53,861 bases of DNA, taken from the IMG/VR virus record IMGVR_UViG_3300008261_000101, positions 1-53,861 of that record; one strand, given 5' to 3'. Made by a program: the position numbers and the translations under genes. The DNA comes from a virus. The notes under the pieces are model-generated. The model was not told the origin of the DNA and searched no databases. It was given only the letters and a program-made list of their open reading frames with translations. Below, in pieces: positions 23,201 to 44,639 of the stretch. Position 1 is the stretch's first letter; every line of letters begins with the position of its first letter.

Positions 23201-23506
23201 ACCTAAATATGAATAGGCAGCCTGCAAACCGTATTCGTTTTGCTCGCCGCCATGAATTGGATTGTTGTTTGCATCGGTATAAAATAACGGATCGCCAAAT
23301 GTTTCAGATAATTCTCTTTGTGACGAAACCAAGTATACTTTATTTGCATTTGCTGCTAATGTACCGGGTGCTATGCCTGTATTACCCGGATTAGCTTTAT
23401 TTTCTTTTGTAGCTACAAAAATTAAAGGTGTAGTACCTGGTTCAGCAGGAGTATAGAAACTCTCATCAATTACTGATACCTGTACACCCGGTGATACTAA
23501 TGCCAT
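20225..23506 (-). CDS. gp18: gp18 contractile tail sheath protein (1093 aa)
   Basis: Starts MALVSPGVQVSVIDESFY, the usual gp18 N-terminus. The C-terminal third carries the sheath core: PWFAPAGTRRG, then NPITFLNGAGLVVFGQKT and RINVARLVIYLRSQLK, ending in strands EFIYIPLRLKNTGEI. T4 gp18 has 659 residues; the extra length is a large insert (roughly residues 130-680) of beta-rich, Thr/Ser/Asn-rich sequence with repeated GD-x-W...Y-x-G-x-x-W motifs, expected to sit on the sheath surface. AAGGAG precedes the ATG, with a GCTAAATA box upstream. Confidence 0.95.
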   Translation of the reverse strand: MALVSPGVQVSVIDESFYTPAEPGTTPLIFVATKENKANPGNTGIAPGTLAANANKVYLVSSQRELSETFGDPLFYTDANNNPIHGGEQNEYGLQAAYSYLGVSNRAYIVRADVDLAAITASATATAGDPTNGSYWFDIDNSFYGIFEWNGAAGTTTGGQSFSNKVPTVITDTTKVVDFDGEDYTPKGSVGAVGDYAVVAVTNVNRMWFKNSGGVWVEVGSAAWKASWPVVTGTNSNPTLVTGRTINFDLASDSSGVVPVTLAGTTLSSLVTSINSAMTGTGVSAAVVNSRLVIYNNGSTSDLLSIYGDDATFTLLGIAQSDYYSPRLNIAPHTSVPEFKTNDVQPRPSGSVWVKTTSPNLGAKWSVKRYSSDTEVWSTIPAPIYDTNHAAIYSLDNAGGGANLVEGDIYIQSNIAEDSASAKLATFKLFRRNASGATSIRSSRVTASTFPAGSWTFTISESTVNSATMSSASTISFTSTGAVSDADLIANAINAAALTNVTASVDSQNRITISHATGGEMRLVDGTSDPLGNMFAVYDATDPSSTTNFYDAPDGTAGSYVATLWKTLTYTASETEPTTTPADGALWYSSVVDEVDIMIHNGTTWVGYQNFNASYADCDPLGPIVAATQPTEQSDGSSLVDGDLWISTADTENYPGIYRYNGLTSKWVQLDKSDQTTESGVLFADARYNTAGANSDEAGDIADLLTSNYLDPDAPDPALYPKGMLLWNLRRSGFNVKRFERDYIDVNAENIRFSDQSMASYYPNRWVTESANNEDGSGAFGRVAQRKVVVQKLQAAVNNNDEARDDETRLFNLIATPGYPELIGEMISLNYDRGLTAFVVGDSPMRLQPSTTAISNWASNVNLAVEDNDIGLVSRDEYLGVYYPSGFTSDNAGNNIVVPASHMVLRTIALNDQVAYPWFAPAGTRRGGVTNASATGYISAEGEFVSIALNEGQRDTLYQNNVNPITFLNGAGLVVFGQKTRARNASALDRINVARLVIYLRSQLKTLAKPYIFEPNDKITRDEIKQQVESLLVELIGLRAIYDYLVVCDESNNTPNRIDRNELYVDIAIEPVKAIEFIYIPLRLKNTGEIAGL

Positions 23507-23542
23507 TGTTTATTTCTCCTTGTGGATAGTTGTTGCTATTAT

Positions 23543-23550
23543 TATTTAGC
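23543..23550 (-). promoter_or_regulatory. Late-promoter box GCTAAATA before gp18
   Basis: Variant R-N-TAAATA box predicting a start at 23537 and a 31-nt leader with AAGGAG. Confidence 0.5.
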
Positions 23551-23595
23551 TTATATCCGGAGAATTTTGTGGTTTACAGGTAGAAAAATGCGTAG

Positions 23596-24096
23596 TTAAA
23601 GAATAAAAGACAACAGTTGTGTTGTATTAAATTCTAGATCTTGTAAACTACCATTGTTGTCTATTGTATAATCTGCCATCCATTGTTCCAAACTCATGCT
23701 GTCAGTTGATTCCAAAGGAAGGTGCATACTTCTGTCAACCCAAATTGCATAGTCAAATACTCCTGTATTTTTCATAGCAAAGAATTCACGTTTATTACGT
23801 AAACCGCAATAAATGTCGTGAGCTTTAAAAATTTCTTGACCTAACTTAGCTGCATCAGGAACATTATAATTGCAGATAGCATCATACCATTCTGCTCTGT
23901 GACTATGTCTGTCAGCATAACACTCTTCTTCATTATAATATCCATATTTGTCCTTTAACATGTCAAAGATAAAAAGTTTACTGCAAAACTGACTACTGCT
24001 TTCAAAGCTAAACCCGTATTTGTCTCGAAGTATTTCGCAGACTGTGTCTTTGCCATGTCGACCATGCCCAATTACAAGTAACTTTGGTAAACTCAT
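23596..24096 (-). CDS. P-loop kinase, probable deoxynucleoside monophosphate kinase (166 aa)
   Basis: The P-loop GHGRHGKDT (residues 10-18) with Lys16 and following Asp-Thr is like T4 gene 1 dNMP kinase and related adenylate-kinase-like enzymes. A later segment, FDYAIWVDRSMHLP, has the Val-Asp-Arg pattern near the lid/base-binding region of that group, and TIDNNGSLQDLE resembles the C-terminal segment of dNMP kinases. It would phosphorylate dNMPs to feed phage DNA synthesis. GAGGA precedes the ATG, and a sigma70-type promoter lies in the upstream gap, unlike the late boxes of its neighbours, so it is probably early. Confidence 0.7.
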   Translation of the reverse strand: MSLPKLLVIGHGRHGKDTVCEILRDKYGFSFESSSQFCSKLFIFDMLKDKYGYYNEEECYADRHSHRAEWYDAICNYNVPDAAKLGQEIFKAHDIYCGLRNKREFFAMKNTGVFDYAIWVDRSMHLPLESTDSMSLEQWMADYTIDNNGSLQDLEFNTTQLLSFIL

Positions 24097-24124
24097 TTAT
24101 TCCTCGTGTTTTATCAATTTTCTT

Positions 24125-24153
24125 ATAGTAACAAAATATAAGACTTTTGTCAA
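24125..24153 (-). promoter_or_regulatory. Sigma70-type early promoter for the P-loop kinase gene
   Basis: On the minus strand a perfect -35 TTGACA (24148-24153) is followed after 17 nt by TACTAT (24125-24130, four of six -10 bases). It is the best host-type promoter seen among late genes. Confidence 0.55.
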
Positions 24154-24156
24154 GAG

Positions 24157-24561
24157 TTATACACCGTACTTATTTGGTTTCTTTTTTGCCACAGGGCTTA
24201 CTGTATTTGTACTAGCTGTTTCTAAACTTTTTGAGGCAGCAATCCTCTTTGGTGTAACTCCCATTAACTTACTTGCTAATGCAACAGTTTCGTCATCTTC
24301 AGGAACAAAGCTAACTTGTGTTAAATTTTCAGCCCACTCAGATTCTTGTTCAAAATCGGTTCCTTGTATGTCACCGTTTTGTAAAGCCCTTGCCGAAGCA
24401 ACTGCAAGTCCGTATCTGTATTGCATATAAGGATCTGTGTTACGCAATTGTTTTTGTATAAACACACTTGGCAACGGATTAGTAACTCTTGCTGGCAGAT
24501 TTTTTGTAGATCCGGTTAGCTTAGGTTCTTTTTGTTCCTGTATGATATCTCTTATTTTCAT
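24157..24561 (-). CDS. Conserved hypothetical protein downstream of gp13 (134 aa)
   Basis: Ends in VSPVAKKKPNKYGV, a C-terminal pattern I recall from small proteins of marine T4-like phages. It has a helical middle (PYMQYRYGLAVASARAL), an acidic stretch and a Lys-rich tail. Function unknown. Its Shine-Dalgarno AGGATAA overlaps the gp13 stop, so it is translated with gp13 and is probably late. A neck or connector role would fit its place but is inference. Confidence 0.7.
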   Translation of the reverse strand: MKIRDIIQEQKEPKLTGSTKNLPARVTNPLPSVFIQKQLRNTDPYMQYRYGLAVASARALQNGDIQGTDFEQESEWAENLTQVSFVPEDDETVALASKLMGVTPKRIAASKSLETASTNTVSPVAKKKPNKYGV

Positions 24562-24564
24562 CTG

Positions 24565-25329
24565 TTATCCTATTAAGAAAGTATATCCAGTACCACCGGG
24601 TACTGCTGTAAATACTTCATTCTCTAATTTTTCTAACTCAGCTTGTGCTTCGGCTTTTAGCGATGTTCCATTAAGACTAGTTCCGCCTTGTGGACCTGCA
24701 ATAGTGGCAAACTTTTCTCTTGCTTCTCCTAACATGTATTTGCAGGCAGCAAGAGTATAATCTTTAATCCATTGTTTAGCTAGATAGTCCTGTAGAAGTT
24801 GGCCGTCGGGTCTATAATTATATGAATATATCAACACTTCTTCGCCTGCTCTAGGGCGCTGTAACAGTGTTAGTCTTTTAGTAACAGAATTCCACGTAAA
24901 TTCTATAAAACTACCAAACATGCGACCTACTAACTCTTGTTGTCCTGCAAATAGCTCGTATGTTGCAAGTCCGCCCATTCCACTACCTGCTAACAAATAT
25001 GTGTTTGTATATGCTAGATTAAATGGTTCAAACAAACTGCTACCGTCACCTGAACCACTGCGTGATCCTACACTGCGTCTAAATATCTGTCTAACTTCGA
25101 TAACTTCCGGAGGTAAAATATAAGCATTTTGGTCCTCAACGAGTTTTAATGATATGTAACTTTCTTCAACAGCGTGTTCACTGCGCTGGCGAAACCTGCT
25201 CAAGGCTTTGGTTAGAGCTGCTTCGTAGTGTACTGGATCTAGTTCCACATCAATCATGCCGCCGCCTAACATAGTGTGTACATAATCAAACACTTCTTGT
25301 TTTTGTGTGACTAAATTATTATCTACCAT
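24565..25329 (-). CDS. gp13: gp13 neck protein (254 aa)
   Basis: Head-completion/neck protein that caps the portal. The block YVHTMLGGGMIDVELDPVHY, continuing into a FRQRSEHAVEESY segment, and the VIEVRQIFRRSVGS, GLATYELFAGQQELV, FIEFTWNSVTKRL and GEAREKFATIAGPQGG segments match marine T4-like gp13. GGAGAC lies at the predicted transcript start, 14 nt before the ATG. In T4 gp13, gp14 and gp15 run together; here gp13 points away from gp14 and gp15 across a palindromic promoter pair. Confidence 0.92.
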   Translation of the reverse strand: MVDNNLVTQKQEVFDYVHTMLGGGMIDVELDPVHYEAALTKALSRFRQRSEHAVEESYISLKLVEDQNAYILPPEVIEVRQIFRRSVGSRSGSGDGSSLFEPFNLAYTNTYLLAGSGMGGLATYELFAGQQELVGRMFGSFIEFTWNSVTKRLTLLQRPRAGEEVLIYSYNYRPDGQLLQDYLAKQWIKDYTLAACKYMLGEAREKFATIAGPQGGTSLNGTSLKAEAQAELEKLENEVFTAVPGGTGYTFLIG

Positions 25330-25348
25330 TTTGTGTTGTCTCCAATAG

Positions 25349-25356
25349 TATTTATC
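25349..25356 (-). promoter_or_regulatory. Late-promoter box GATAAATA before gp13
   Basis: Predicted start 25343, coinciding with the first base of the GGAGAC Shine-Dalgarno of gp13. One arm of a nine-base palindrome shared with the gp14 box. Confidence 0.6.
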
Positions 25357-25361
25357 GTAAC

Positions 25362-25369
25362 GATAAATA
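25362..25369 (+). promoter_or_regulatory. Late-promoter box GATAAATA before gp14, leaderless spacing
   Basis: Predicted start 25375, the A of the ATG that gives the family-typical N-terminus MPRLSLYRPN. Back-to-back with the gp13 box, three bases between palindrome arms. Confidence 0.6.
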
Positions 25370-25374
25370 TGTAT

Positions 25375-26532
25375 ATGCCTAGATTAAGTCTTTACCGCCC
25401 GAACAAAACAGCCGATTACGAATTCCTTGATAGAATTATCAACGAACAATTCAGCATCGGCGGAACCGACTTGTTTATACACAAGTATCTTGGAACCAAA
25501 AATCCATCCAATGAAAATGCAACCGCAGATCAACCTCAGTACGCTACAATAAAAGAAACTAACATTCAAGATATGTTATTTTTAGAAAATAGAGACAGAA
25601 AATACGATGCTGACATATATCGGATCCGCGGGGTATACAATGTTCAGGATAACGATTTTAATTTAAGTCAGTTTGGATTATTTTTAAGTAATGACACACT
25701 GTTTTTAACAGTGCATATAAACAGCAGTGTTAAGACATTAGGTAGAAAAGTCATGCCAGGTGATGTAATTGAGCTACCACATTTAGTCGACGAGTATGCG
25801 CTTAACGATTATTCAGTTGCGTTAAAACGTTTTTATGTAGTAGAAGATGTAAACAGAGCATCCGAGGGATTTAGCCAAACATGGTATCCGCATTTATACA
25901 GATTAAAATTAAAACAAATAATTGATAGTCAAGAGTATAAAGATATACTCGATTTACCTGCAGGAGATGAAGCAGGAAATACATTAAGAGATGTACTTAG
26001 TACGTTTGAAATTGATATGCAAATCAACAACGCAGTTATTGCACAAGCAGAAGCAGATGCAGCAAGTAGTGGATATGATACTAGTCATTTTTATACATTA
26101 CAAGTTGATGAACGAGGTCATACGGAATTAATAACAACAGATTTAACTACGCTAGATGCATCGACACAAAATGAGTTAGCAGATAGAGTAAATCAGACAC
26201 CCGAACGTAGTGGGTATTCGGGATATCTACTTGGCGACGGTTTAGCACCAAACGGTGAAGCATTTGGTAGCGGTATTACGTTTCCGTTAAATTCAACAAA
26301 AGGCGATTATTTTTTAAGATTAGATTTTATGCCAAATAGATTATTTAGATTTGACGGAACTCGCTGGGTTAAAATGGAAGACAACGTAAGAACAACACTA
26401 AGTAATACAACAACTAGAAACACACAAAAAGGTACGTTTATTAATAATATTAACACAACTACTGTGTGTGATGATACAGTCGATGAAAGACAGAGTTTGT
26501 CAAAGGCTCTTAGACCAAAGGCAGATAATTAA
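25375..26532 (+). CDS. gp14: gp14 neck protein (385 aa)
   Basis: Starts MPRLSLYRPN, continuing into DYEFLDRIINEQFSIGGTDLFIHKYLG, as I recall for marine T4-like gp14. The block GLFLSNDTLFLTVHIN...GDVIELPHL...FYVVEDVNRASEGFSQTWYPHLY matches T4 gp14's strand pattern. The C-terminal region holds GDYFLRLDFMPNRLFRFDGT, a small W/Y-rich module also seen in gp15 and gp18. I chose the ATG at 25375 over ATGs at 25333 and 25369 on family N-terminus and promoter spacing. No Shine-Dalgarno. Confidence 0.85.
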   Translation: MPRLSLYRPNKTADYEFLDRIINEQFSIGGTDLFIHKYLGTKNPSNENATADQPQYATIKETNIQDMLFLENRDRKYDADIYRIRGVYNVQDNDFNLSQFGLFLSNDTLFLTVHINSSVKTLGRKVMPGDVIELPHLVDEYALNDYSVALKRFYVVEDVNRASEGFSQTWYPHLYRLKLKQIIDSQEYKDILDLPAGDEAGNTLRDVLSTFEIDMQINNAVIAQAEADAASSGYDTSHFYTLQVDERGHTELITTDLTTLDASTQNELADRVNQTPERSGYSGYLLGDGLAPNGEAFGSGITFPLNSTKGDYFLRLDFMPNRLFRFDGTRWVKMEDNVRTTLSNTTTRNTQKGTFINNINTTTVCDDTVDERQSLSKALRPKADN

Positions 26533-26564
26533 TGTGTAAAAAGAGCTTGGATGGATAAAAAATA

Positions 26565-28082
26565 ATGAGTTTGCATTTTTATGACGGACAAATAAGAAGA
26601 TATTTAACTCAAATTATTAGAATGATGAGTAACTTTTCGTACAAAGATGGAGACGGTGACTTGAGACAAGTTCCGGTAACATACGGCGACCTGACTAGAC
26701 AAGTTGCTAGTATTATGAGAGATAATTCTGAAAACAAAATACCCAGTGCTCCTCGCATGGCAGTTTACGTTACTGGTTTAGAAATGGACAGAAGTAGAAC
26801 CAGTGATTCGTCATATGTTAGTAAAGTTCACATTAGAGAACGTGCATATGACACTAGCGGAAACGAGTACTTAAATACCCAAGGCAAAAATTACACAGTT
26901 GAACGTTTAATGCCTACTCCTTACAATTTAGCAGTAAGTGTTGATATATGGACAACTAATACAGATCAGAAACTACAAATACTAGAACAAATATTAATGT
27001 TGTTTAATCCTAGTTTAGAAATACAAACAACAGATAACTTTGTTGACTGGACTAGTTTAAGCGTAATAAATTTAGAAAGTATTACATTTAGCAGCAGAAG
27101 TATTCCTGTAGGTGTTGACTCAGAGATAGACATAGCTACATTAGGATTTAGTACTCCTATCTTTATATCACCACCAGCAAAAGTAAAACGTCTAGGAGTT
27201 ATTACAAGTATTATTACAAGTATATTCAACGAAGCAACTGGATCTATTGACTTAGGAATAAGTTCAGGTCAAGGTATACTTGAAAACAATAACTGGACTA
27301 TTCGTGAAGAAAGAACAACTGTCGGTGCAGACGGAACAGTTGAAACAACAGTCGATAAGGGAGAGTTTCCAAATACCGGAACAGGAGAAATGGACTTTAA
27401 CGTTAAACGAACATTTGTTCCTGCTGCATTAGGAAGTGCAAATGGTAGTATTGGTATACTAGGATTAGGACTTTATATCAAGGGCGGAAAAGCATACGTT
27501 ATTGACAAGGGCGAAGTCGGTACTGTAAATTGGAATGGAATATTTGAACAAGTACCGGGATGTTATACTGCCGGTGTAAGTCAGATACGAATTTCAAACG
27601 GTGATGGTACATATATTATTGGCTACATAACTGTTAATCCATTAGATCCAACAGAGTTAATTGTCGATTGGGACGAAGATACATTTCCTGCAAATACTGT
27701 GTTGACTAGTAGTGCAAGAAATCCTAATAGTTATACTAGCATGGATTACATTATTGATCCTCTACGTTGGAACCCAACTACTAGATTGGTTGTAGGGTTA
27801 CGTTTACTAATATTAAGCAAAGTGGGCAACGACAACAACGACGACGGAGCAGACGGATGGAAGAGTACAAACAGTCCGTTTGGCGAGTTAGTGGCGGGCG
27901 AGAATGATATAATTGAGTGGGATGGCGATCAGTGGAATGTTATTTTTGATGCAAGTGAAAATGCAAATCCTATTTTTATAACTAATCTAGCAACAGGAAG
28001 TCAGTATAAATGGACTGGCGAATATTGGACTAAAAGTTTCGAAGGCGAATATTCACAAGGATCTTGGGCGCTGTTTCCATAA
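26565..28082 (+). CDS. gp15: gp15 tail terminator / sheath stabiliser (505 aa)
   Basis: Caps the tail and joins it to the neck. N-terminal SLHFYDGQIRRYLTQIIRMM, then VPVTYGDLTRQVASIMRDN, NYTVERLMPTPYNLAVSVDI and QKLQILEQILMLFNPSLEIQ follow T4 gp15 region by region. T4 gp15 has 272 residues; about 200 extra C-terminal residues here contain WDGDQWNVI and YKWTGEYWTK modules. It starts 32 bases after gp14 with a GGAT-type Shine-Dalgarno, so the two are one plus-strand operon. Confidence 0.88.
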   Translation: MSLHFYDGQIRRYLTQIIRMMSNFSYKDGDGDLRQVPVTYGDLTRQVASIMRDNSENKIPSAPRMAVYVTGLEMDRSRTSDSSYVSKVHIRERAYDTSGNEYLNTQGKNYTVERLMPTPYNLAVSVDIWTTNTDQKLQILEQILMLFNPSLEIQTTDNFVDWTSLSVINLESITFSSRSIPVGVDSEIDIATLGFSTPIFISPPAKVKRLGVITSIITSIFNEATGSIDLGISSGQGILENNNWTIREERTTVGADGTVETTVDKGEFPNTGTGEMDFNVKRTFVPAALGSANGSIGILGLGLYIKGGKAYVIDKGEVGTVNWNGIFEQVPGCYTAGVSQIRISNGDGTYIIGYITVNPLDPTELIVDWDEDTFPANTVLTSSARNPNSYTSMDYIIDPLRWNPTTRLVVGLRLLILSKVGNDNNDDGADGWKSTNSPFGELVAGENDIIEWDGDQWNVIFDASENANPIFITNLATGSQYKWTGEYWTKSFEGEYSQGSWALFP

Positions 28083-28083
28083 C

Positions 28084-28091
28084 GCTAATTA
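28084..28091 (+). promoter_or_regulatory. Weak late-type box GCTAATTA at leaderless spacing
   Basis: One mismatch from the gp18 box GCTAAATA, and placed exactly five bases before the Nudix ATG. Suggestive only. Confidence 0.3.
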
Positions 28092-28096
28092 TTAGT

Positions 28097-28531
28097 ATGA
28101 AAAGTATTGTTTGTTCCGGTGCACTGTTTTATACATTATCCACTAGTAGATTTTTATTACTTCATAGAACGCAATCTAAACAAAACAATGTTTGGGGTTT
28201 AGTTGGCGGTACAAATGAAGAACGTGAAACTCCGTGGGAAGGGTTAAAACGAGAAATAACTGAAGAAATAGGGACTATGCCTGATATTAAAAAAGTTATT
28301 CCGTTGGAAACATTTATAAGTAACGATGAACATTTTAAATTTCACACATACTTGTGTGTAATTGACCATGAATTTGTTCCTACTTTAAACAATGAGCATG
28401 ACGGATATGCCTGGGTTAAGTTTGGAAGTTGGCCAAAACCCTTGCATACTGGGTTGGCCAACACTCTTAGACGTAAAGCAAATCAGCAAAAATTAGACAC
28501 AGTTTTTAAGATTGTTGATTTAATTTCGTAA
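28097..28531 (+). CDS. Nudix hydrolase (144 aa)
   Basis: A full Nudix box G-x5-E-x7-REITEEIG occupies residues 38-59 (G38, E44, R52, E53, E56, E57). Nudix enzymes hydrolyse nucleoside diphosphate-linked compounds; the VWGLVGG lead-in and length near 150 aa resemble GDP-mannose or (d)NTP-type members, but the substrate cannot be told. I chose the ATG at 28097: an upstream in-frame ATG at 28064 lies inside gp15. No Shine-Dalgarno. The 3' end overlaps the convergent 1127-aa gene by 26 bp. It lies beside glycosyltransferases, so nucleotide-sugar turnover is one possibility. Confidence 0.85.
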   Translation: MKSIVCSGALFYTLSTSRFLLLHRTQSKQNNVWGLVGGTNEERETPWEGLKREITEEIGTMPDIKKVIPLETFISNDEHFKFHTYLCVIDHEFVPTLNNEHDGYAWVKFGSWPKPLHTGLANTLRRKANQQKLDTVFKIVDLIS

Positions 28532-31500
28532 ACTGTTCTTTTAGCCAATCAAAGTCGTTGATTTTTCTTAACGCTTCGATGTTGCCTATATTATCTATAC
28601 CGTACTGCTTACCTGCATTTGCACCAGCAATACAATAATCGCCAAATTCTTTATCCTTGCCACGAGTACACCAGACGTTTAATCTAAAATCAGTTTCCTC
28701 GTCTCGCTGGCCGTCAATGGTTTTTGATGACAATTTTACACATTCTCTAAACGCACTTCTCCAAGTACTAAACGGATCGGTATTAAATTTAGTAATATTG
28801 GAAACACGGTTTATAGACTTAAACAATGTAGATATACTTGTAGTCATGTCAGGCTTGGTTGTGTCCATGGTTAGTGTTAACTCTTTAGGTAACAACTTTA
28901 CTGCACCATATCCGTATACTAAGTTATTAATAGGGTTCAGTGATTTCCAAACGTGAACTGTTTTTTTACTATCAGGGTCGTATGTTGGAATATAGTAATC
29001 AAAATTAAAATTATCAATAATCTCGGCATCAGCATCAACAACCCAGATCATTTCAGACGAACAAAGTCGTGCTGCTTCAATATGTGCTTGGTGTATGCCT
29101 TGTACTCCGTGTACACGCTTTGCGTTAGGAAATCTTTCTTTTAATTTACTATAATTTGTATCTGCATGTTCTTCGTCTTTGCTTATAAACACAATGTCAT
29201 AAGTTTTTGGATTGCTTGCTACAATGTCGTATTCTTTCTTTTCTAAATAAAATCTATGTGTTACTTCGTGTTCAATTGCTGGAAGTTTTTTACTCATTAA
29301 AGCTACGCCATCGTATGCACTGCCGTTTTTAAAGATGTGATGTATACTTCTTTCAAACCATTGATTGTGTGGAAAATACAAATCAAATTTAAAATTATTT
29401 GCAATGTCAACATCATCAGGAATTGACCAAAACATTTCTGTTTTTGAGTTTTGCACTGCATTTAAATAGTCGGCGTAATTCTTTATAATAAACTTATCAT
29501 AAACAACTGGACCACTTGCAACTATATCCCATTCTTTTCGTTTTGCAATTAATCTGTGTTCTACTTCTTTTTCAGTTAACACTATTTTTTTAGTACACAA
29601 AAATAATCCATCAAACGAAATTTCGTCACCGCATTTATGTTTAAACACGTGATTTATGTTTCTATCAAATGTCTCGTGATGACTAAAGTACATGTTTAAA
29701 TTAAACGTATCAGAGATTTTTATATTATGTGTGCCCATCCAAAACATGTCGGTAGCTGATTTTTCAAGAGCATCTAAATATTGATCATACGTGTCGATAA
29801 AAAAGAAATCATACGGCTTAGGATAAACGCCCCAGAACAATTCTGTTTTTGATTTTTCTAATGCATTTAAATAATCGTTGTAGTTGTTAACAGTAAACTT
29901 TTCATATTGACCGTTTGTGGATACAACAGTATCCCACTCTTTTGCGTTAACAATAAATCTGTGTTCTATTTCTTTTTCGGTAATAGGTTTATGTTTACTT
30001 AATAAGAACACGCCGTTAAATTTTATTTCGTTGTTGTCTTTGTGCGCAAATGCATGATTTTGTTTTCTATCATATTCATTGTCATGAGTAAAATAGATTT
30101 TTTCAAGTTCGTTTTCGTTTACTTTAATGTTGTGTGATAACGCCCAAAACATTTCTGTTTTGGTATTATCTAATGCATTGATATAATCGTCAAATGTTTC
30201 TATATAAAACTTATCATATATAACTGGACTGCTTGCAACTATGTCCCACTCTTTTGCGTTAACAATAAATCTGTGTTCTATTTCTTTTTCGGTAACAGTC
30301 TTGTGTTTCGAAATTAAAAATAAACCATTTCGATAAGTTTTACCTTCAACTTGATGAATGAAGCTATGGTGTGTTTTCCTGTCGTATTCATTTTCATGTA
30401 AAAAATACAAATCAGGAATTGTAGGAGATATGTTGCTACTACTCATCCAGAACATTTCAGGTCCATTAGAATTTAGTGCAGTTAAGTAATCGTTGTAACT
30501 GTCAATGTTGTATACAGGATACTTGACTGGACCAGAAACAATAACATTCCATTCTTTTCGTTCAACAGGATGTCTGTATTCAACTTCTTTTTCGTTTAGT
30601 GCTTTACATGTACTGCATAGTATTAAACCATTTTTATATAACTCATTGTTTACTTTATGTAAAAATACGTGTGTTTGTTCGCGATCAACTCGATTGTGCC
30701 AATCTATGTAAAAATTGTTTATATAATCATGATCTACAGAAATATTATTTGTAGATACCCAAAATAGTTCTGTTGTAGTTTTGTCTAGTGCATTTAAATA
30801 ATCATTATAATTTTCTACGTTGAATATATCATAGGGTTTCGGATGTGATGCAACTACATCCCATTCTTTTTTTTCTATATAAAACCGATGTTCAAATTCT
30901 TTTCTAGTTACTGGACTTCTTTTAGAAAAAAGTACTATTCCATCATACGAGTCTTTGTTTTTAAAAACGTGTGTAATATCTCTATCAAACATGTTATAAA
31001 AATCAAAATTAATTGAAAAGTCAAAATCTTTTTCAACTATTACGTCTTTTGGAACATGCCAAAACAATTCTGTTTTTGAAGTTTTTAATGCTACTTCATA
31101 GTCTTCATACGTGTCAAAAGAAAATATTTCGTAATTTCTAGGTTTACTTGCTACTTGTTTTATTTGTTTCTTTTGTGCTAAGAATCGATATTCCAATTCT
31201 TTATCTGTTGGAATATAGCTTTTAGGCATTAACACAATACCATCAAACTTATCATTTTTTCCATTACCGAATAAATGGGGATATTTAAAACTCCACTCGT
31301 CTGGTTCGTAATCAAACTCAAATGTTTTATCTACAATTAAATCGTCGTACACAATCCAAAACATATCTGTTACTGCTACTCTCATAGCATCTTGATAGGT
31401 TTTAACTGCAATAGCTTCGGGAAATCTTTTTCTTAAATCTTCCCATGTACCGGTTTCTTTGTCACCTAGGAAGAAAATATCAAAGTTATGTTTTCCTCTA

Positions 31501-31889
31501 TACACATCGTAGTCACCGCAAATGTTAGTTTCGGTTACAAGATGTGTTTCATCATTTACGATAGTTGGTACAAGTCTAACTTTTTCCCAACTACTTACAC
31601 GCTTGCTTTCTTTAAAAACATATGGAAAACAAATAGTACATCCATAGTCATCACGTTTGGGTTTGTAGTGCCACGGAAACGATCTATATACTTCGATATC
31701 TTTATCAACAACCCATACATAATCTGACTTATCTTTGAACTTTTCGAGTTGTTTTAAATCGTAGTTCTTTGCGTCTTCTACATATAGGATTGGAAATCTT
31801 TGCAAGATATGATTTTTTAAAACATCTTGTGCATTGTAAGTCTTTTTACTAAATTTTTTAAAACGTTCAACTGTATTCATTTGTCTCAT
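28506..31889 (-). CDS. Tandem-repeat GT-A-like glycosyltransferase array (1127 aa)
   Basis: About ten units of roughly 100 residues, each with a Y-x-D-Y-x-x-A-L helix, an M/L-F-W-x4-x-I strand, a D-R-x-x-x-H-x-F segment and T-E-K-E-x-E-H-R-F, then K-E-W-D-I-V-A-S. The F-W strands lie near residues 60, 178, 275, 377, 481, 581, 685, 716, 823 and 951. Only the last is a clear GT-A DxD site (MIWVVDADAEI); the first (YVWVVDKDIEV) is close; the middle ones are degenerate (e.g. MFWALSHNI). Unit seven is truncated to about 32 residues. A C-terminal segment, STWRSAFRECVKLSS, is typical of phage glycosyltransferase-like proteins. The start could be 31889 or 31880; neither has a good Shine-Dalgarno, and both lie in the upstream gene's end. 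Confidence 0.7.
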   Translation of the reverse strand: MRQMNTVERFKKFSKKTYNAQDVLKNHILQRFPILYVEDAKNYDLKQLEKFKDKSDYVWVVDKDIEVYRSFPWHYKPKRDDYGCTICFPYVFKESKRVSSWEKVRLVPTIVNDETHLVTETNICGDYDVYRGKHNFDIFFLGDKETGTWEDLRKRFPEAIAVKTYQDAMRVAVTDMFWIVYDDLIVDKTFEFDYEPDEWSFKYPHLFGNGKNDKFDGIVLMPKSYIPTDKELEYRFLAQKKQIKQVASKPRNYEIFSFDTYEDYEVALKTSKTELFWHVPKDVIVEKDFDFSINFDFYNMFDRDITHVFKNKDSYDGIVLFSKRSPVTRKEFEHRFYIEKKEWDVVASHPKPYDIFNVENYNDYLNALDKTTTELFWVSTNNISVDHDYINNFYIDWHNRVDREQTHVFLHKVNNELYKNGLILCSTCKALNEKEVEYRHPVERKEWNVIVSGPVKYPVYNIDSYNDYLTALNSNGPEMFWMSSSNISPTIPDLYFLHENEYDRKTHHSFIHQVEGKTYRNGLFLISKHKTVTEKEIEHRFIVNAKEWDIVASSPVIYDKFYIETFDDYINALDNTKTEMFWALSHNIKVNENELEKIYFTHDNEYDRKQNHAFAHKDNNEIKFNGVFLLSKHKPITEKEIEHRFIVNAKEWDTVVSTNGQYEKFTVNNYNDYLNALEKSKTELFWGVYPKPYDFFFIDTYDQYLDALEKSATDMFWMGTHNIKISDTFNLNMYFSHHETFDRNINHVFKHKCGDEISFDGLFLCTKKIVLTEKEVEHRLIAKRKEWDIVASGPVVYDKFIIKNYADYLNAVQNSKTEMFWSIPDDVDIANNFKFDLYFPHNQWFERSIHHIFKNGSAYDGVALMSKKLPAIEHEVTHRFYLEKKEYDIVASNPKTYDIVFISKDEEHADTNYSKLKERFPNAKRVHGVQGIHQAHIEAARLCSSEMIWVVDADAEIIDNFNFDYYIPTYDPDSKKTVHVWKSLNPINNLVYGYGAVKLLPKELTLTMDTTKPDMTTSISTLFKSINRVSNITKFNTDPFSTWRSAFRECVKLSSKTIDGQRDEETDFRLNVWCTRGKDKEFGDYCIAGANAGKQYGIDNIGNIEALRKINDFDWLKEQFTKLNQQS

Positions 31890-32478
31890 CTAAAATAAAT
31901 GCTTTTATTCCGTAGTGTGCTACTTGTTTACTCAAGTCAACATCAATAAAAGTTTTGAATCCATACTCGTTTGCTTGTCTGCAAAAATAAATATCTTCAC
32001 CTACAAAGTTGTCTTCTGCTTCGTTATAAATGTGAGTAAACCACGGCTTAGGTAACGTTTCAAAAACTTTTCGACTTACTAACATGCACCCCATTCCAAC
32101 TGCCCAAACTTTATGCAAGCCTGTTTTGGCATCTAGCCTAGCATCTAGATCGTGCTGATTGATAAATGCAACACTTCTTAATGGTTTAACTCTTGTGCTA
32201 TAAGTTGCAGCAACAATATCTTTATTGTGTGCGAGCAACTGATCAACTGTGTCTTTTGGAAAGTGCATGTCACTGTCGAGCCAAAGTAAATAGTCCGATC
32301 CACTTTGTAATGCACGATTTGCTAGTATTTGTCGTAGGTCTGGAATAACAGTTCCTAATGCAGAAAATATTTCAAAATCTACACCGGACTTTGCCAAGTG
32401 CGAAGTTAAATTAGCAAGAGACTTGGCAAATCCTAGGTGTACATAGTTGTGTGAAGGAATGCATATTGCAATTTTCAT
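31867..32478 (-). CDS. GT2-like glycosyltransferase (203 aa)
   Basis: N-terminal strand KIAICIPSHNYVH and the DxD strand YLLWLDSDMHFP (D68/D70) are those of GT-A family-2-type enzymes. VWAVGMGCMLVSRKVF and GEDIYFCRQANEYGF provide the acceptor-side Gly-rich strand and the E-D catalytic-type motif. It is shorter than most full GT2 enzymes. The ATG overlaps the stop of the 133-aa gene (TAATG) and its end overlaps the 1127-aa gene, so it forms an operon with that repeat protein and may share its acceptor. Confidence 0.8.
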   Translation of the reverse strand: MKIAICIPSHNYVHLGFAKSLANLTSHLAKSGVDFEIFSALGTVIPDLRQILANRALQSGSDYLLWLDSDMHFPKDTVDQLLAHNKDIVAATYSTRVKPLRSVAFINQHDLDARLDAKTGLHKVWAVGMGCMLVSRKVFETLPKPWFTHIYNEAEDNFVGEDIYFCRQANEYGFKTFIDVDLSKQVAHYGIKAFILDETNEYS

Positions 32479-32879
32479 TAAACTAGCTCTTGACTAATCA
32501 AATCTAGATTCAATTCCTTTTCAGTTGCTAGTGTGAGTTTGTTTAGTTTGTTTGCTGTACTTGTTGCTTTTTTTACAACCTCTGCAAATTCTTTTTCAGG
32601 AAGCAGTGCCATTGCTAACATTGTTTCCGGTTGTACTTTACCTAAAGTTAGAAGATCTGCCGCTGCACGATTACCAAAATGTTCAATCCAATGGTGTTTG
32701 TCATCGGCTTCTGCTCTACCCAAAACTTCTTCTTCGGTTTCACTGCCTAAGATTTTAGTTTTAATAGATTGTTCTAGTTCCTTGTCTTCTAAATTAATAG
32801 ATTTTAATTTTTTAAGTTTTCTTGCCTTACTAAATTCAGTAGCAAGAATAACATTCTCGAGTTCATATGCTGTTATCAT
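32478..32879 (-). CDS. Conserved hypothetical protein (133 aa)
   Basis: A helical, charged protein. The segments EQSIKTKILGSETEEEVLGR and RAAADLLTLGKVQPETMLAMALL suggest a compact helical domain. I recall no function. GAGGAGA precedes the ATG. It sits between fibre genes and glycosyltransferases in one leftward operon; the neighbourhood does not settle whether it is structural. Confidence 0.65.
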   Translation of the reverse strand: MITAYELENVILATEFSKARKLKKLKSINLEDKELEQSIKTKILGSETEEEVLGRAEADDKHHWIEHFGNRAAADLLTLGKVQPETMLAMALLPEKEFAEVVKKATSTANKLNKLTLATEKELNLDLISQELV

Positions 32880-32897
32880 AAAAGTATTCTCCTCAAA

Positions 32898-33071
32898 TTA
32901 ACTACCTTGACCACCGAATGTGGCACTAAGACAAATAAATGTACCTGAAGAAATACCTAAGTATGTTCCTAGTACACCCATGAATATAGGAGTTCCGGAA
33001 AGCCCGAAGTAAGTGTTTACATCGCTCATACAAATGAGACTACCTGTTGGTGGTAACGATCCTGTTGCCAT
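32898..33071 (-). CDS. Small structural-type protein (57 aa)
   Basis: An ATG at 33069-33071 with AGGAA seven bases upstream opens a 57-codon frame ending in TAA at 32898. The N-terminal half, SLPPTGSLICMSDVNTYFGL, follows the pattern of small phage fibre-associated modules (polar-Gly-x-Ile/Leu-x-Met/Leu-x-Asp-Val/Ile...Phe-Gly-x-Ser-Gly). The C-terminal half is hydrophobic and Gly-rich with two Cys in all. It follows the fibre gene and its terminator, so a tail-tip or fibre role is likely. Confidence 0.65.
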   Translation of the reverse strand: MATGSLPPTGSLICMSDVNTYFGLSGTPIFMGVLGTYLGISSGTFICLSATFGGQGS

Positions 33072-33091
33072 ATATATTCCTAGTTTTTACT

Positions 33092-33120
33092 ACAATAGCA
33101 GAGTATTTAATTTAAGTCAA
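33092..33120 (-). promoter_or_regulatory. Promoter region for the 57-aa gene (late box and possible sigma70 site)
   Basis: A late-type box ATTAAATA (33104-33111) predicts a start at 33098 and a 27-nt leader. The same stretch holds TTGACT (33115-33120) and TATTGT (33092-33097) with 17-nt spacing. Which one is used cannot be told. Confidence 0.35.
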
Positions 33121-33122
33121 GT

Positions 33123-33149
33123 AGGATAGCCAAGGTTTTTGGCTATCCT
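33123..33149 (-). terminator. Hairpin after the 3793-aa fibre gene
   Basis: Eleven-base arms (AGGATAGCCAA / TTGGCTATCCT) with a five-base loop begin six bases after the stop. The U-tract is poor, so termination may be partial. Confidence 0.6.
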
Positions 33150-33154
33150 TACTT

Positions 33155-36100
33155 TTATTTATCGAGTACTTTCTGAAGCATTGATCTCAACTCGTCAATT
33201 TGTCTTTGCTGTTCTTTAAACGCTTCGATAAATGCACCAGCAAAAGCACCGTAGTTAACTGACTTAATACCGTCCTCGCCTTCATGCACAACTTCTGGAA
33301 AATATTTCTCAACTTCTTGTGCAATAACACCCATATGTCTACGTTCGGTGTCTTCTTTATCGGTTCTTGTAAATGTCACACCACGTATGCTTAATATCTT
33401 GGTTAGCGGATCTGCAATAACTTCAATGTTATCTTTAACTCTAACGTCAGAGAAAGCACAAACATCACCAGTTGCAGTAAAAGTTCCATCGCCAGTTAAT
33501 ACTGCGGCTTGTGTAGTTCCGCCGTACCATCTGAAGTATGTAGTAGCACTAGCAGTTGGAACACTGTGCCACAATGTACTGCTTCCGATACCTATTGCAT
33601 AATCCACTGCCGCAGCACCTATAGCTGGATATAATAATAGTTTAGTACCGGCGCTTCTTGTGGTAAATGCAGGTAAGTCAACACCGTTGACGTTCCAGTC
33701 AATTCTGTTACCGCTTGCACCATTTAGATAAAGTTGACTGCTGCCTGCTGTAGCATTATTTGCACCAGATAGTATCAATGTTTGTGTACTTGGATTTATA
33801 CTGAAGTTAGTGTTAACAAGACCGGTTTGTGCACCTGTGGTGTTTGCAACAAACGTAATGTATCTAGTTGCGTTTGTCGAGTCAGTTGCAATGCTTTGTA
33901 GTGTATCAGTGTTTGTGTCAGTGTCACTCCACGGAACGTTTACTACCAAGTTGTCACTGCCGTCAACTTGAACTGCGTATGTTCTACTTGCTGTTGCACT
34001 AACTGCGTTTGATGCAACTGTTTGTGTAGTAGCATTTACGTTTGCATTAAATGTTGTGCCACTTAACGTTAATCCTGTTCCTGCTGTATAAGTTGTATTT
34101 GTGTCAACTACAGTTTCAGTTGCAGTTGTTAATCCAGTTACGTGACCGTATGTATCAAGTGTAACAGATTGGATATATGTTCTGCCAGTATTAGATAACG
34201 AATTTTGACCACTTGTATTTGAGTGACTGATTGTTATTCGATCTGCAACTGTATCAGCTACTAGATCGATACCGTTTGTGCTATCTACTGCTCCTGCTCT
34301 AATATATAGCGTATCATTGTTACTGTCTGCAACAACTGTATCAATTGCGGTACCATCAGATTGTTCAAGTGTGATGTTTTTAAATATATTCTGCGAGCTG
34401 CCGAGATCAGTGTTTGTAATACGAATAGCGTCACTTGTTGCAGCCACGTCGATATTAATACCAGATCCGCTTACTAGCGTTAGTGTGTCTCCAGTAGTAT
34501 CTGCAACAGCACTGCCTGTTTCTGCCCAGGTATATCCGCTGTCGGTATCAGTTACTGTAACAGTACCAAAGTCTGAACTTTGGCTAGTTAAGTAAGTTGC
34601 AGTTGTAACCGCAGTTACGTGACCAAAACCATCAAGAGTGATTGCAGCAATACCTGCACTACCTTGAGCGCCAGTTAATGTGCTGGTGTCTGCGTGTGCA
34701 ATTGTAGCTGCTGTACCTTCACCTGCTGTTGCACTGATAGTAAGCCCGCTTGATGTTGTTTCTGCACCAGGTGTGCCAGCAGCTACAGTTGCAACATAGT
34801 TACCAGTGGTGTCAGTCCCGAGCGCAACACTGTCGGCTGCAATTGTTGCTGTCAGTGTAACGGCTGCACTTCCGTCAATGCTTACGCTACCACTTAAATC
34901 GCCACCTAGTGTTATAGTTCTAGCTGTTGCCCACTTGGTTGCTGTTGCTGCGTTACCAGAAACGCTAATTGCATAAGTGCCTGTTAGTCTGTCGCTAGGC
35001 ACTGTACCACTGGTTAGCTGGCTAGCATTAAGAGTTGTTAATCCGCTACCATTACCGTTAAATATACCATTGGAGTATACGTTTCCGGCAACACCTAAAC
35101 CTCCGCCGATGATAACAGCACCGGTTGTATGGCTAGATGAAGCAGTTGTGTCGCTAAATGTCTTAGCTCCTGCCATAGTCTGAGTACCGCCTAGTCTTGC
35201 TCCGTCTACAGTACCACTTGATAGGTTTGAAGCATTTAAGGTTGTTAATCCGCTACCGTTGCCAGTGATTGTACCGCCAAGGTGAATGTTTCCAGCAACA
35301 CCTAGTCCTCCGCCGATGATAACAGCACCGGTTATAGTACTAGATGAAGCAGTAGTATCACTAAATGTCTTAACTCCTGCCATAGTTTGGTTTCCGCCTA
35401 AGCGAGCACCTGCTACTGTACCACTGGTTAATTCAGTCGCATTAAGAGCAGTTAAGTTTGTACCCACTCCGGAGAAGCCACTGGTTCCACCAAATGTTAA
35501 TGTTGTTGTACTAGCTGTTAAAGTAACGCCCGGAATTCGGAAGTTGGTTATACTACCGTTACCTAGTGTAATTTCGTTGCTGGTTGTACTTGTGCTTGCG
35601 TCTGCATTATAACCAATAACAATGTTATTACTGCCTAATGCAATGCTATCGCCAGCATTACTACCGATAGCAACGTTTTGTTTACCAGTGGTAATTGCAA
35701 GTGCCTGATATCCAACTGCAACGTTGTTTGTAGCTGTATCGCTTACAGTGCCGGTTGTGTTTTGCATCGATTGAGCACCAACAGCAACGTTGTATCCAGC
35801 ATTTGCTGCGGCTTGTGCTAGTGCATCATTTCCTATTGCAGTATTATGTGTTGAGCTAGTAACAAGAGCCAATGCTGTATTACCAAGTGCAACGTTATCT
35901 GTGCCTGTAACAACAGCACCCATTGCACCGACACCGACTACTAGATTGTCAGTACCGGTACTTATAGCTTGTCCACCTGCTATTGCAAGATTGGTTGCAC
36001 TATTTCCACCGCCACGACCGACTTTGTGGCTGTTTACAGTTATATCACTGGTAAATGTTTTTCCTGCTTGCGATGTAGGCAAATAGGAATCACTTATAGT

Positions 36101-39100
36101 ACCAGAACTTATATTTGAAGCATTTAGAGTTGTTAGTCCGCTACCATTACCAGTGAATGTACCACCAGAGTGAACATTTCCAGCAATACCGACACCGCCG
36201 TCAACAACTAATGCACCTGTTGTAGTGCTGCTCGAAGCAGTTGTTGCATCTATGTTTACATCTGGTTTAAGAGCAATAGCATTGCTACCAGTTGTACTTG
36301 TGAAAACAATAAAGTCATTTGATCCGTCTGTGATACTTAACCCGTCTACTAGGTTTGTAGGGAATACAATTTCGTTTTCGGTAGTTGCACCCTTAAAGTT
36401 TACGCTTTCACTTAGATACAAGTCTTTCCATGCAAGTGAACTTGTACCCAAGTCTCGAGCATCATTTGTACTTGGTTCTAAGTTGCTGTCCATACGTCCT
36501 ACAAATGTTATAGTGTCGGAAGTGGCATTACCTAGATTGATATCTCCATTTAAATCTGTTTGTCCTGTTACAGTTAGTGTACCTGCAACAGAAGTATTAC
36601 CACTTGCTACTACTACACGAAACTTTTCAGATCCGCTGGCGCCGATATCAAAGTTGGTACCATCAAAGCGGAAGTTTGCATCGTCTTCTACTATGCCACC
36701 AGTTCCTGCAATAACAATACGGTTATTGGTCAAGTCACTTATAGTTGCACTGGCTAGGGTTGATTCACCGGTAACACCCAATGTTCCTGCAACGGAAGTA
36801 TTGCCACTTGACGCAGTTACAGTAAATTTATTTGTATTAACTGAAAAATCGCCGCCGATGTCTCCTAGTCCGGAAACATCTAACGTACCAATGGTTGCTG
36901 TTCCGTTGACATTTATGCTTGTAGCTGTTAGATTCCCTTCAAACGCATCTGCAACAACAGTGCCGAGACTAAACGATGCATCGGCGACATTGATGTTGCC
37001 GGTTATTGCAGGATCGTATTCATCAAAGAACTTAAACTTTTGATCTGTAACATCAAAGAAGAATCCTAGATGAGTGTATCCTACACCCGATGTCCCTGTG
37101 TTTCTGTTTCCTGTAACACCAACATCAACGTTTACCGGCGAAGCACTACCTGACCAGATATCGTTTAGTGTGTGTCCTGTTGTCGATACCCACACAACAC
37201 TGATACCGTCTGCTAGTGCTACAGGGTCTGTATCTACATCAATGTCAGTTGCTTCTGTTGTAGAAAAGTTATCCAATGACCATTCAAACGTGTCAACTCC
37301 TCCAGTACCGCCGCCGACACTGTCTATTCTTACATAGAATGTTTGTGTTGTTGTACCCTGGTAGTGTCCTACTAGTGTAGCATCATCTAACCCTGTACCG
37401 GTGAATGTTGTTCCATCGTTTCCTATTGTGTCTCCAGAATTTAAATATATAAAACTAGAGTCAACTTCTAAGTTGTTCAATTTAACACTAGATTGACTAC
37501 CTAGTACTATTAAGTCTCCTGCAACTGTAACATCAGCATCGAAGTATGCACCTTCGGTGACTCTAAATTTTTCTACTGTGTGACTTCTTAGTTCGATGTA
37601 AATTGATCCTGTGCTTGCATTACTGGTTAAACAGATACCGATATCAACTGGGAAGTTAGGATAATCGGGTGCAGTTTGCACTAGTGTTCCTGGAGCATCA
37701 AACCCTAAGTGAATCTTTTGTCCAGATGTTAAGTTACTGGTATCGATACCGTCGATATATCCACTAACAATAACATAACCTTCTGCTCCGTTTGCAATAT
37801 TATGTCCTGCTAATCCTATAACTTCTATTTTGTTAAGATCGCTAGCATCGGCTAATGCAACTGTTGGATAGCGTCCAAAAACAGCATCTCCTGCAATATA
37901 AACACCTGTTACATAAACAGGTTGACCTTTATTGATAGTTGCGCCTGAACTGTTGCGGCAACGAATAAATTCACGTTCACCTAATGTAATGTCAAAGTTA
38001 CTATTATTGCTAAACAATACCAATGACTCAAAATCGCTGTCATAGTATAGTCTGCCTTCTTGGTATGACGGACGACTTGAATATGCAGTCGGTGAAAAGT
38101 CTATTCGGCCCAGGTTAGCTTCAGTTACGTTAACTGTACCATTGACGTATAAGTTTTCTGCAATACCAACTCCGCCGTCGACAACTAATGCACCTGATGT
38201 ATAACCAGTAGATCCTGTGGTTGAATTAAATGTGACATTACCATCAACTGTAAGAGCATCATCTACTTTTACATCTCCTGTAAACGTTGCCAGACCACTG
38301 GTGTCTATTGTTAGACGTGTAGTTGATGTTTGCTCAATAGCACTGGACGATCCAACTTCACCTGTTTTTACAACAAAGTTGCCGCCGGTGGCATTACCTG
38401 TTCCTAGTCCGGCTTGTATAGTAAATGCGCCGCCGGCTATGTTTGTTCCTATACCGCTTTCACCTTTGAGTGTTGCATTTGCAGTACTGCTACTTGCTTC
38501 TGCACTACCGAAAATAACATTTCTGTTTCTTATTAACATTGTGTTATCTTTAGTAAGTGTTCCTGCAATAGGCGATGACGAACTTACAGTAACGTTTGCA
38601 TTGGTTTTTATAGTAAAGCTAGTAGCGTTAAATGTTGCGCCTAGTACTGGCCATTGTCCATCTAAGTTAGAAACAGTGCTACTAGCTATGTTAATGGTGT
38701 CGCCTGCTCTGATGCCTAATGTAAACGGAGTATAGGTAAATGTTAATGTTGTACTTGACGATATTGTTCCAGTTGTTTCTGCACTCAAATAAACATAATC
38801 AGTTGTAACACCGGAAACTGTTGTATTTGCAGGAATACTAGCAGAACCAGTTACTAACATGCCTGCTAGTATTCCACTAGTACTTGCCATTGGAACTTCT
38901 TTGTCACCATTTCCAGTAATACCGTCTGTTGCTGCGGTAAAAGATTCTAAGTTTACTGTTACTGTTGTTGAGGAGGTTGCATCGTAGTTGTCAATGAAAC
39001 TTGTTATATTTCTTGTAGCAGTACTCTTACCTATTTTTACAGTTTCGGCAGCAGATCCTAATTCTAGTGTAGTAACATTATCATTGTATACCAAACCAAT

Positions 39101-44536: not shown

Positions 44537-44609
44537 ATGTAACTCCTATATAGGTGTGGGTCAAAGCATTAAGCCGCCCGGATTTGAACGATATAAATCG
44601 CTACAAATA

Positions 44610-44617
44610 TATTTATC
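44610..44617 (-). promoter_or_regulatory. Late-promoter box GATAAATA before the S74 fibre gene
   Basis: Predicts a start at 44604 and a 67-nt leader with AGGAG before the ATG at 44536. The leader contains short A/T-rich inverted repeats (e.g. CGATTTATATCG, 44589-44600) whose role is unclear. Confidence 0.55.
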
Positions 44618-44639
44618 TTGGAGTTTAATAGTGGTACTT

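Follow-up and report, generated by a model that had tools for sequence, protein, structure and literature searches.

What does a phage gain from a protein made of some ten glycosyltransferase-like units, of which only the last retains a clear DxD motif? The window, the whole 53,861-nucleotide stretch of IMG/VR record IMGVR_UViG_3300008261_000101 analysed here, belongs to a large aquatic virus of bacteria and carries such a gene next to that of a tail fibre.

Architecture of the array protein

The open reading frame has the borders (28506–31889) and the 1,127 residues given in the preliminary description, and it is read from the minus strand, starting at 31889. The protein comprises units of approximately 100 residues followed by a C-terminal domain with an intact DxD. 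The repetition claimed earlier is borne out by a best 50-residue BLOSUM62 self-diagonal of 200, where 50 shuffled sequences gave no more than 42, and the repeats are spaced by approximately 100–104 residues. HMM decomposition set the borders of units 1–8, unit 6 being truncated, and of the terminal domain; the N-terminal region was assigned by profile–profile comparison.

31404–31889, minus strand: N-terminal region (residues 1–162), a divergent unit with VVDKDIEV (D62-K-D64)
31140–31403, minus strand: unit 1 (residues 163–250), acid type YDD
30840–31133, minus strand: unit 2 (residues 253–350), acid type PKD
30528–30833, minus strand: unit 3 (residues 353–454), amide type TNN, folded in the unit-pair model
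30225–30521, minus strand: unit 4 (residues 457–555), amide type SSN, folded in the unit-pair model
29916–30218, minus strand: unit 5 (residues 558–658), amide type SHN
29820–29906, minus strand: unit 6 (residues 662–690), truncated; a complete PSD unit in relatives L002 and L006
29508–29813, minus strand: unit 7 (residues 693–794), amide type THN
29208–29501, minus strand: unit 8 (residues 797–894), acid type PDD
28509–29201, minus strand: terminal GT-A domain (residues 897–1127), the sole complete one, with the DxD and a downstream D-x-E-T-x-x-R-L-x-x-W
29028–29036, minus strand: DxD of the terminal domain, Asp952-Ala-Asp954
29826–31000, minus strand: recombination patch, where phages that are otherwise near-identical carry one or the other of two central-unit alleles, told apart by SNPs

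The earlier count of about ten units is correct, because the N-terminal VVDKDIEV region is a further match to the unit profile (hhalign 92.6%).

The half unit at position 6 was rejected as a natural architecture. The window copy lacks 69 residues that are present in otherwise identical phages (99.97–100% identity), and the corresponding 207-nucleotide gap is in frame at 29825/29826. Two contigs stop at precisely this base, those of L028 and L029, the latter being 29,825 bases long with matching coordinates, and the junction is spanned by none of the seven records checked. The gap is probably an assembly join, because both contigs end there; it may alternatively represent a real deletion allele.

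Ancestry and divergence of the units

The terminal domain has the conservation expected of the single intact catalytic domain described earlier. Both acids of the DxD are aspartates in 158 of 158 domains and are at least 95% conserved among 81 non-redundant domains; in an alignment of 15 sequences, D56 and D58 of the domain are invariant, as is the downstream D-x-E-T-x-x-R-L-x-x-W, a candidate from sequence for the catalytic base of GT2 enzymes (xED-like) that follows the DxD. Pfam GT2 models match weakly across the DxD strand in relatives (E values of 0.0034 and 0.0019), and the best GT2-type score, about 18 bits, falls short of the curated cut-off of 27. The terminal domain recurs in hundreds of viral contigs from metagenomes.

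The units are homologous to this domain. Profile–profile comparison (hhalign) of unit and terminal domain gives 97.8%, and also 96.7%, compared with about 3% or less for unrelated neighbour families, and the terminal-domain profile picks up the units across whole virus records (E values from 1e-9 to 1e-4). Kinship of the neighbouring glycosyltransferase (c3), families c12, c5, c13 and c15 and a NUDIX gene with the terminal domain, or among themselves, found no support, with hhalign values of about 3% or less for the pairs tried.

An AlphaFold model of the pair of units 3 and 4 (pLDDT of 96) is consistent with the GT-A fold, a mixed α/β core with the DxD strand. Nearly all of the PDB matches listed by Foldseek for this model are GT-A transferases or NDP-sugar nucleotidyltransferases, at modest scores (E value of 0.02, TM-score of about 0.3), and the fold call therefore rests on the consistency of the matches. 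For a whole 876-residue relative, the best match is chondroitin polymerase (E value of 1.6e-4), followed by WrtF, ArnC, RmlT and TarP. Neither model adopted a fold other than that of a GT-A half, and Pfam and PHROG profile searches placed the units in no known repeat family. The GT-A ancestry first proposed from the letters is thus supported by the profile comparison, the whole-record matches and the fold. That duplication links the units to the terminal domain is part of the overall explanation favoured below and shares its evenly balanced confidence.

All internal units lack the C-terminal half of approximately 115 residues that bears the invariant D-x-E-T-x-x-R-L region, and the first aspartate of the DxD is gone from essentially all of them, replaced by P, S, W, T or Y. 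The earlier statement that the middle units had lost the acids holds for this first position and fails for the second, where 177 of approximately 365 distinct units across relatives carry D and 125 carry N; in the window, YDD, PKD and PDD keep the second acid, and TNN, SSN, SHN and THN carry N. The two types are ordered. Long arrays usually begin with two to three acid units and continue with three to eight amide units, D-N-D and then the catalytic domain. Acid-to-amide swaps at unit positions 30 and 64 go in pairs, and H55, G65, L68, E79 and S96 are nearly invariant. The units evolve under strong purifying selection (dN/dS of approximately 0.06–0.08), in support of the earlier suggestion that they were kept for a non-catalytic role.

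Variation and genomic setting

The array protein matches no Pfam or PHROG family in profile searches, and sequence searches found no solved relative. A tblastn search of 50,697 INPHARED records gave no match to it, and none to the terminal domain even at an E value of 10; the family consensus at the same threshold likewise found no relative in cultured phages. The unit count across related viruses, a comparison that the preliminary description had proposed, ranges from 0 to 16. The terminal domain occurs with 1 to 16 units and also alone, as a separate protein of approximately 230 residues beside sugar-enzyme genes; catalysis should therefore not need the array.

The ends of the array are conserved, and its centre is exchanged and lengthened between nearly identical viruses. 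Between the window and L003/L010 there are 58 SNPs within 29826–31000, compared with 2 in 22509–29825 and about 14 in 31000–50174, so that a recombination hotspot is confined to the central units; L008 has gained one whole unit. This swapping and lengthening of the centre suggests that the array selects or binds the target of the enzyme.

Three neighbouring genes lie on the same strand.

31867–32478, minus strand: 203-residue glycosyltransferase-like protein, its gene overlapping that of the array by 23 nucleotides (PHROG glycosyltransferases, E value of 6e-7)
32478–32879, minus strand: 133-residue protein (PHROG 1409), in the same operon as the array
33155–44536, minus strand: 3,793-residue tail-fibre-like protein with a C-terminal Peptidase_S74 domain (endosialidase chaperone) and 22.5% Ser + Thr

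The 203-residue protein also matches Pfam Anp1 just under the cut-off (E value of 8e-6) and GT2 weakly. In MW202711, a gene for a relative of this protein directly follows that of the major capsid protein. The order S74 fibre, small gene, glycosyltransferase, array recurs in nearly all displayed loci of context A, the setting of the window clade, and no sugar-nucleotide genes were found near this operon among the genes scanned. Relatives in context B are surrounded by radical SAM/SPASM genes, along with genes that probably encode an epimerase and an NDP-sugar dehydrogenase.

Arrays of 5, 8, 9 and 16 units are paired with fibres of about 3,573–3,637, 3,793, 3,874–3,920 and 3,926–3,939 residues, respectively, a weak rise that follows the phylogeny. 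The earlier idea that the units set the reach of the catalytic domain is not favoured, because array length varies threefold and that of the adjacent fibre by approximately 10%. The idea that the array measures out the S74 fibre as a molecular ruler was rejected: the trend is monotonic but shallow and clade-following, and the fibre is the same where the array differs. Variation of the central units does not track the fibre, because the fibre is identical (3,793 of 3,793 residues) in the window and L010, in which these units differ.

Possible functions and known counterparts

The explanation we favour, with about even confidence, is that the gene encodes a phage glycosyltransferase of the GT-A type with a single C-terminal catalytic domain, in front of which a string of truncated GT-A cores without catalytic activity binds or selects the acceptor. 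The dead units would form a scaffold that holds or selects a long repetitive acceptor and presents it to the one active site; at either end the chain would stay fixed while central units are added, lost or exchanged, altering specificity. Gene order, together with analogy to other systems, points to a virion protein encoded alongside, the tail fibre rich in Ser and Thr, as the favoured recipient of the sugar. In an elaboration that we consider unlikely, the ordered acid and amide units would constitute a modular reader, in which every unit recognizes a single sugar or peptide element; the end caps would be conserved, and recombination and expansion of the centre would reprogramme which acceptor reaches the single active site.

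The radical-SAM and sugar-nucleotide genes of context B fit other acceptors too, and the same architecture could act on glycans at the host surface, either the LPS O-chain or the capsule, remodelling the infected cell surface against, for example, superinfection or the sticking of progeny to debris. This reading is possible, if somewhat doubtful. Variable central units would suit variable host glycans, and pelagimyophage host-recognition clusters between VrlC and gp14 contain tail fibres, glycosyltransferases and radical-SAM genes, for which O-chain modification was proposed (PMC7029224); the context-A operon, however, encodes no more than the fibre, the 133-residue protein and two glycosyltransferases, away from any sugar-nucleotide gene seen. 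It is distinctly unlikely that the array is itself a virion component, with the units serving, within a fibre or baseplate, as lectin-like modules for host glycans. Its place in a fibre and host-recognition island and its adhesin-like changes in repeat number and recombination would agree with such a role, but the DxD is kept in every terminal domain, the separate form lies beside sugar-enzyme genes, and Pfam and PHROG searches return no structural or fibre family.

We give still less weight to a processive multi-site polymerase in which the units remain active, be it without a metal or by way of composite sites between neighbours. The retained D or N, the nearly invariant residues and a best whole-protein match to chondroitin polymerase, a two-site GT-A enzyme, speak for it; the loss of the first aspartate and of the C-terminal half, and paired swaps that are unlike catalysis, speak against it. 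T4-like phages possess glycosyltransferases that protect phage DNA, and a DNA-modifying enzyme would have precedent there, but the gene lies in a fibre module rather than a nucleotide-modification module and no base-hydroxymethylating gene was identified alongside among the genes scanned; we consider this highly improbable.

The favoured reading, a single active domain behind an acceptor-binding chain, points to glycosylation within the host-recognition module of uncultured aquatic phages. Although its terminal domain is present in hundreds of contigs, the family is named in neither Pfam nor PHROGs. The role of pseudo-glycosyltransferase modules could be tested directly in it, because the array occurs with 0 to 16 units, as two alleles among nearly identical phages and with two unit types that differ by paired swaps.

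In agreement with the preliminary description, a literature search found no described chain of up to 16 inactive GT-A domains. The top BFVD fold matches, A0A6J5LK21 (804 residues, E value of 6e-5) and A0A6J5L5L5 (1,076 residues, E value of 1e-4) from uncultured Caudovirales phages, probably belong to the family, to judge from their predicted fold. GT2-type GT-A enzymes (the chondroitin polymerase K4CP, ArnC, TarP and RmlT) and WrtF are the best fold matches of the whole protein and of the units, and the DxD strand of relatives aligns with the GT2 Pfam models; unlike these enzymes, the array protein falls below family cut-offs and has a short domain of approximately 230 residues with dead cores in front. 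The PBCV-1 capsid glycosyltransferase (A064R domain), also among the fold matches, is a viral GT-A enzyme for virion-protein glycosylation, but a single active domain from a eukaryotic virus. Mycobacteriophage capsid and tail-tube proteins carry glycans, according to a second-hand account (PMC12619734), and these phages encode distant relatives of the 203-residue glycosyltransferase but none of the array protein.

Single inactive GT-A accessory domains are already known, whereas the array runs to 16. In LH3 (PLOD3), which appears in the Foldseek list, an active GT-A domain lies beside an inactive GT-fold AC domain that possibly serves substrate recognition (PMC6082870); LH3 is eukaryotic, with one dead domain and no repeats. 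In the O-GlcNAc transferase GtfA/GtfB, which modifies serine-rich repeat adhesins, GtfB binds the acceptor for GtfA (PMC6973325). The array protein has no Pfam match to DUF1975, the domain of that GtfA/GtfB type, and the bacterial pair consists of separate proteins from an export locus; the likeness is one of mechanism only, in that a non-catalytic glycosyltransferase partner holds a long Ser/Thr-rich acceptor for an active one.

Architecture and genome context of the array protein

The window covers 53.9 kb of the genome of a T4-like phage and encodes a tail sheath protein and gp15 in addition to a large terminase that is 52% identical to those of 287-kb PA5oct-type phages; these closest terminase matches indicate that it is probably a jumbo phage. 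The array gene, convergent with a NUDIX gene, is the last of four genes in the order S74-type fibre, 133-aa gene, 203-aa glycosyltransferase-like gene and array gene:

Upstream of the array gene: S74-type fibre gene, 3,793 aa, 22.5% Ser+Thr
Between the fibre gene and the 203-aa gene: 133-aa gene
Overlapping the array gene by 23 nt: 203-aa glycosyltransferase-like gene
31889 to 28506, minus strand: array ORF, 1,127 aa

A second giant ORF (2,532 aa, 44640–52238, minus strand) lies upstream of the S74 fibre. In record L171 (MW202711), a relative of the 203-aa glycosyltransferase is flanked by the major capsid gene on one side and a tail tubular gene on the other.

The array protein repeats with a spacing of approximately 100–104 residues: its best 50-residue diagonal scores 200, and the highest score among 50 shuffles was 42. 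HMM decomposition places eight units, one of them truncated, between an N-terminal region and a terminal domain of 231 aa. The DxD motif is intact in every terminal domain, and approximately 365 distinct internal units almost invariably have P, S, W, T or Y in place of its first Asp. The preliminary description of a GT-A-like array holds, except that it took the second DxD position as lost, yet 177 of these units have D there and 125 have N.

Common ancestry and divergence of the units

Profile comparisons indicate that the units and the terminal domain are of common ancestry. With hhalign, the unit and the terminal domain match at 97.8% (96.7% in an earlier comparison over 69 columns, from upstream of the DxD strand through the KLLP strand), versus at most about 3% for unrelated neighbour families, and in six-frame scans of whole records the terminal-domain profile recovers the units with E-values of 1e-9 to 1e-4. 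The model of a unit pair (residues 340–561 of the window protein; pLDDT 96.3) matches PDB entries for WrtF fucosyltransferase, beta-1,4-galactosyltransferase, the PBCV-1 capsid GT and NDP-sugar pyrophosphorylases, and that of a five-unit, 876-aa relative (pLDDT 86) matches chondroitin polymerase (1.6e-4), WrtF, ArnC, RmlT, TarP and LH3. TM-scores stay low, at about 0.3 in the case of the unit pair; a reduced core would be expected to score in this way, and the fold call therefore rests on the uniformity of the matches. Covarying unit columns (26–69, 28–67 and 30–64) fit, independently of the model, an arrangement in which the DxD strand runs antiparallel to, and pairs with, the YDG/YNG strand.

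The units lack the first Asp and approximately 115 residues past the KLLP strand, the region in which the terminal domain carries the invariant D-M-T-T-S-I, W-x-S-x-x-R-E-C and D-x-E-T-x-x-R-L-x-x-W; they keep F24-W25, H55, G65, L68, E79 and S96. The residues at positions 30 and 64 change in concert (D-D 108, N-N 65, mixed 9; Fisher p 1e-38, uncorrected for relatedness), which defines two unit types, acid and amide. Eight of the ten typed long arrays (9–16 units) have two or three acid units, a mostly amide run of 3–10 and then acid-amide-acid; the exceptions are L027, ending in K, and L145, in roughly triplet order. The long amide block is absent from five-unit proteins, with the exception of L127.

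Relatives, alleles and the truncated unit

The array family is real. Relatives of the whole protein are encoded in 75 viral loci, and terminal-domain patterns gave at least 600 matching stretches, confirmed nearly throughout. The terminal domain also occurs on six contigs in bacterial MAGs (L154–L159), among them MAGs of Neomarinimicrobiota, Rickettsiales and Bdellovibrionia; these contigs may derive from phages or prophages. Nothing scored above the cut-off in cultured-phage records, PHROGs or Pfam, and we found no description of the family in the literature. Complete ORFs, counted redundantly over contigs, have 0 (43 ORFs), 1 (5), 2 (1), 3 (11), 4 (4), 5 (41), 7 (2), 8 (6), 9 (10), 10 (1), 11 (5) or 16 (7) internal units. 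The 16 units of a 1,855-aa member (L145:108-5672) form a rough higher-order triplet (S-P/A-N, x-S-D, W-x-D), which suggests duplication three units at a time.

The family occupies two gene contexts, A (window-like) and B. In context B, which resembles the pelagimyophage host-recognition cluster (PMC7029224), the gene is preceded by a different fibre-like gene and by a full-length terminal-domain paralogue of approximately 300 aa (hhalign 100%), with radical SAM/SPASM genes and sugar-nucleotide genes, the latter named from N-terminal sequence only, further on. Four context B loci (L095, L087, L134 and L152) carry a fibre-like gene, two paralogous proteins of approximately 285 aa (the one compared had no INPHARED match), a gene of approximately 200 aa and the ~300-aa paralogue, followed by radical SAM/SPASM genes; this is a sugar-modification island of mostly unnamed gene families.

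Between L006 and L005, L007 or L008, dN/dS is 0.061–0.076 in the units and 0.036–0.055 in the terminal domain, and central units 3–5 exceed units 7–8 in dN in every comparison. The window differs from L003/L010 by 58 SNPs in 29826–31000 (central units), against 2 in 22509–29825 and about 14 in 31000–50174, so a patch of approximately 1.2 kb was exchanged. One allele is found in L002, L006 and L012, and the other in L003, L010, L011 and L020. L008 has one additional whole unit (104 aa), which is not a fresh tandem copy, being 45–55% identical to the others. In this single phage, the fibre (L160) also has a 54-aa Ser/Thr-rich insert in its C-terminal part, and other small gaps, relative to the window fibre.

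The window protein is otherwise 100% identical to that of L002/L006, but 207 nt are missing from the window at 29825/29826. The L029 contig, with coordinates equal to those of the window, is 29,825 bases long and stops at the gap base, as does L028, and the junction is absent from all seven records searched. An assembly join is thus the likely explanation, the alternative being a rare deletion allele; given a join, the natural protein would have 1,196 aa and eight complete units.

Proposed mechanism and comparison with known enzymes

Most simply, the array protein would be an enzyme with a scaffold: a single active GT-A domain, able to exist alone, would be the C-terminal catalyst, and the chain of dead cores would bind the acceptor and set specificity. 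This reading follows from the combination of a lone-capable active domain with a conserved dead chain, exchanged at its centre and not at its ends or in the active domain. Gene order and the analogous glycosylation of virions, for which PMC12619734 is a second-hand source, favour the fibre as a putative acceptor, as does the position of the neighbouring GT's relative just after the major capsid gene. However, the S74 fibre is identical where array alleles differ, so the centre of the array may respond to a different partner, for example a host glycan.

Dead GT modules near an active one have precedents in the LH3 accessory domain (PMC6082870) and GtfB (PMC6973325). The array family is of this known kind, a GT-A enzyme with dead GT modules, and is extreme among such enzymes in module number and order.
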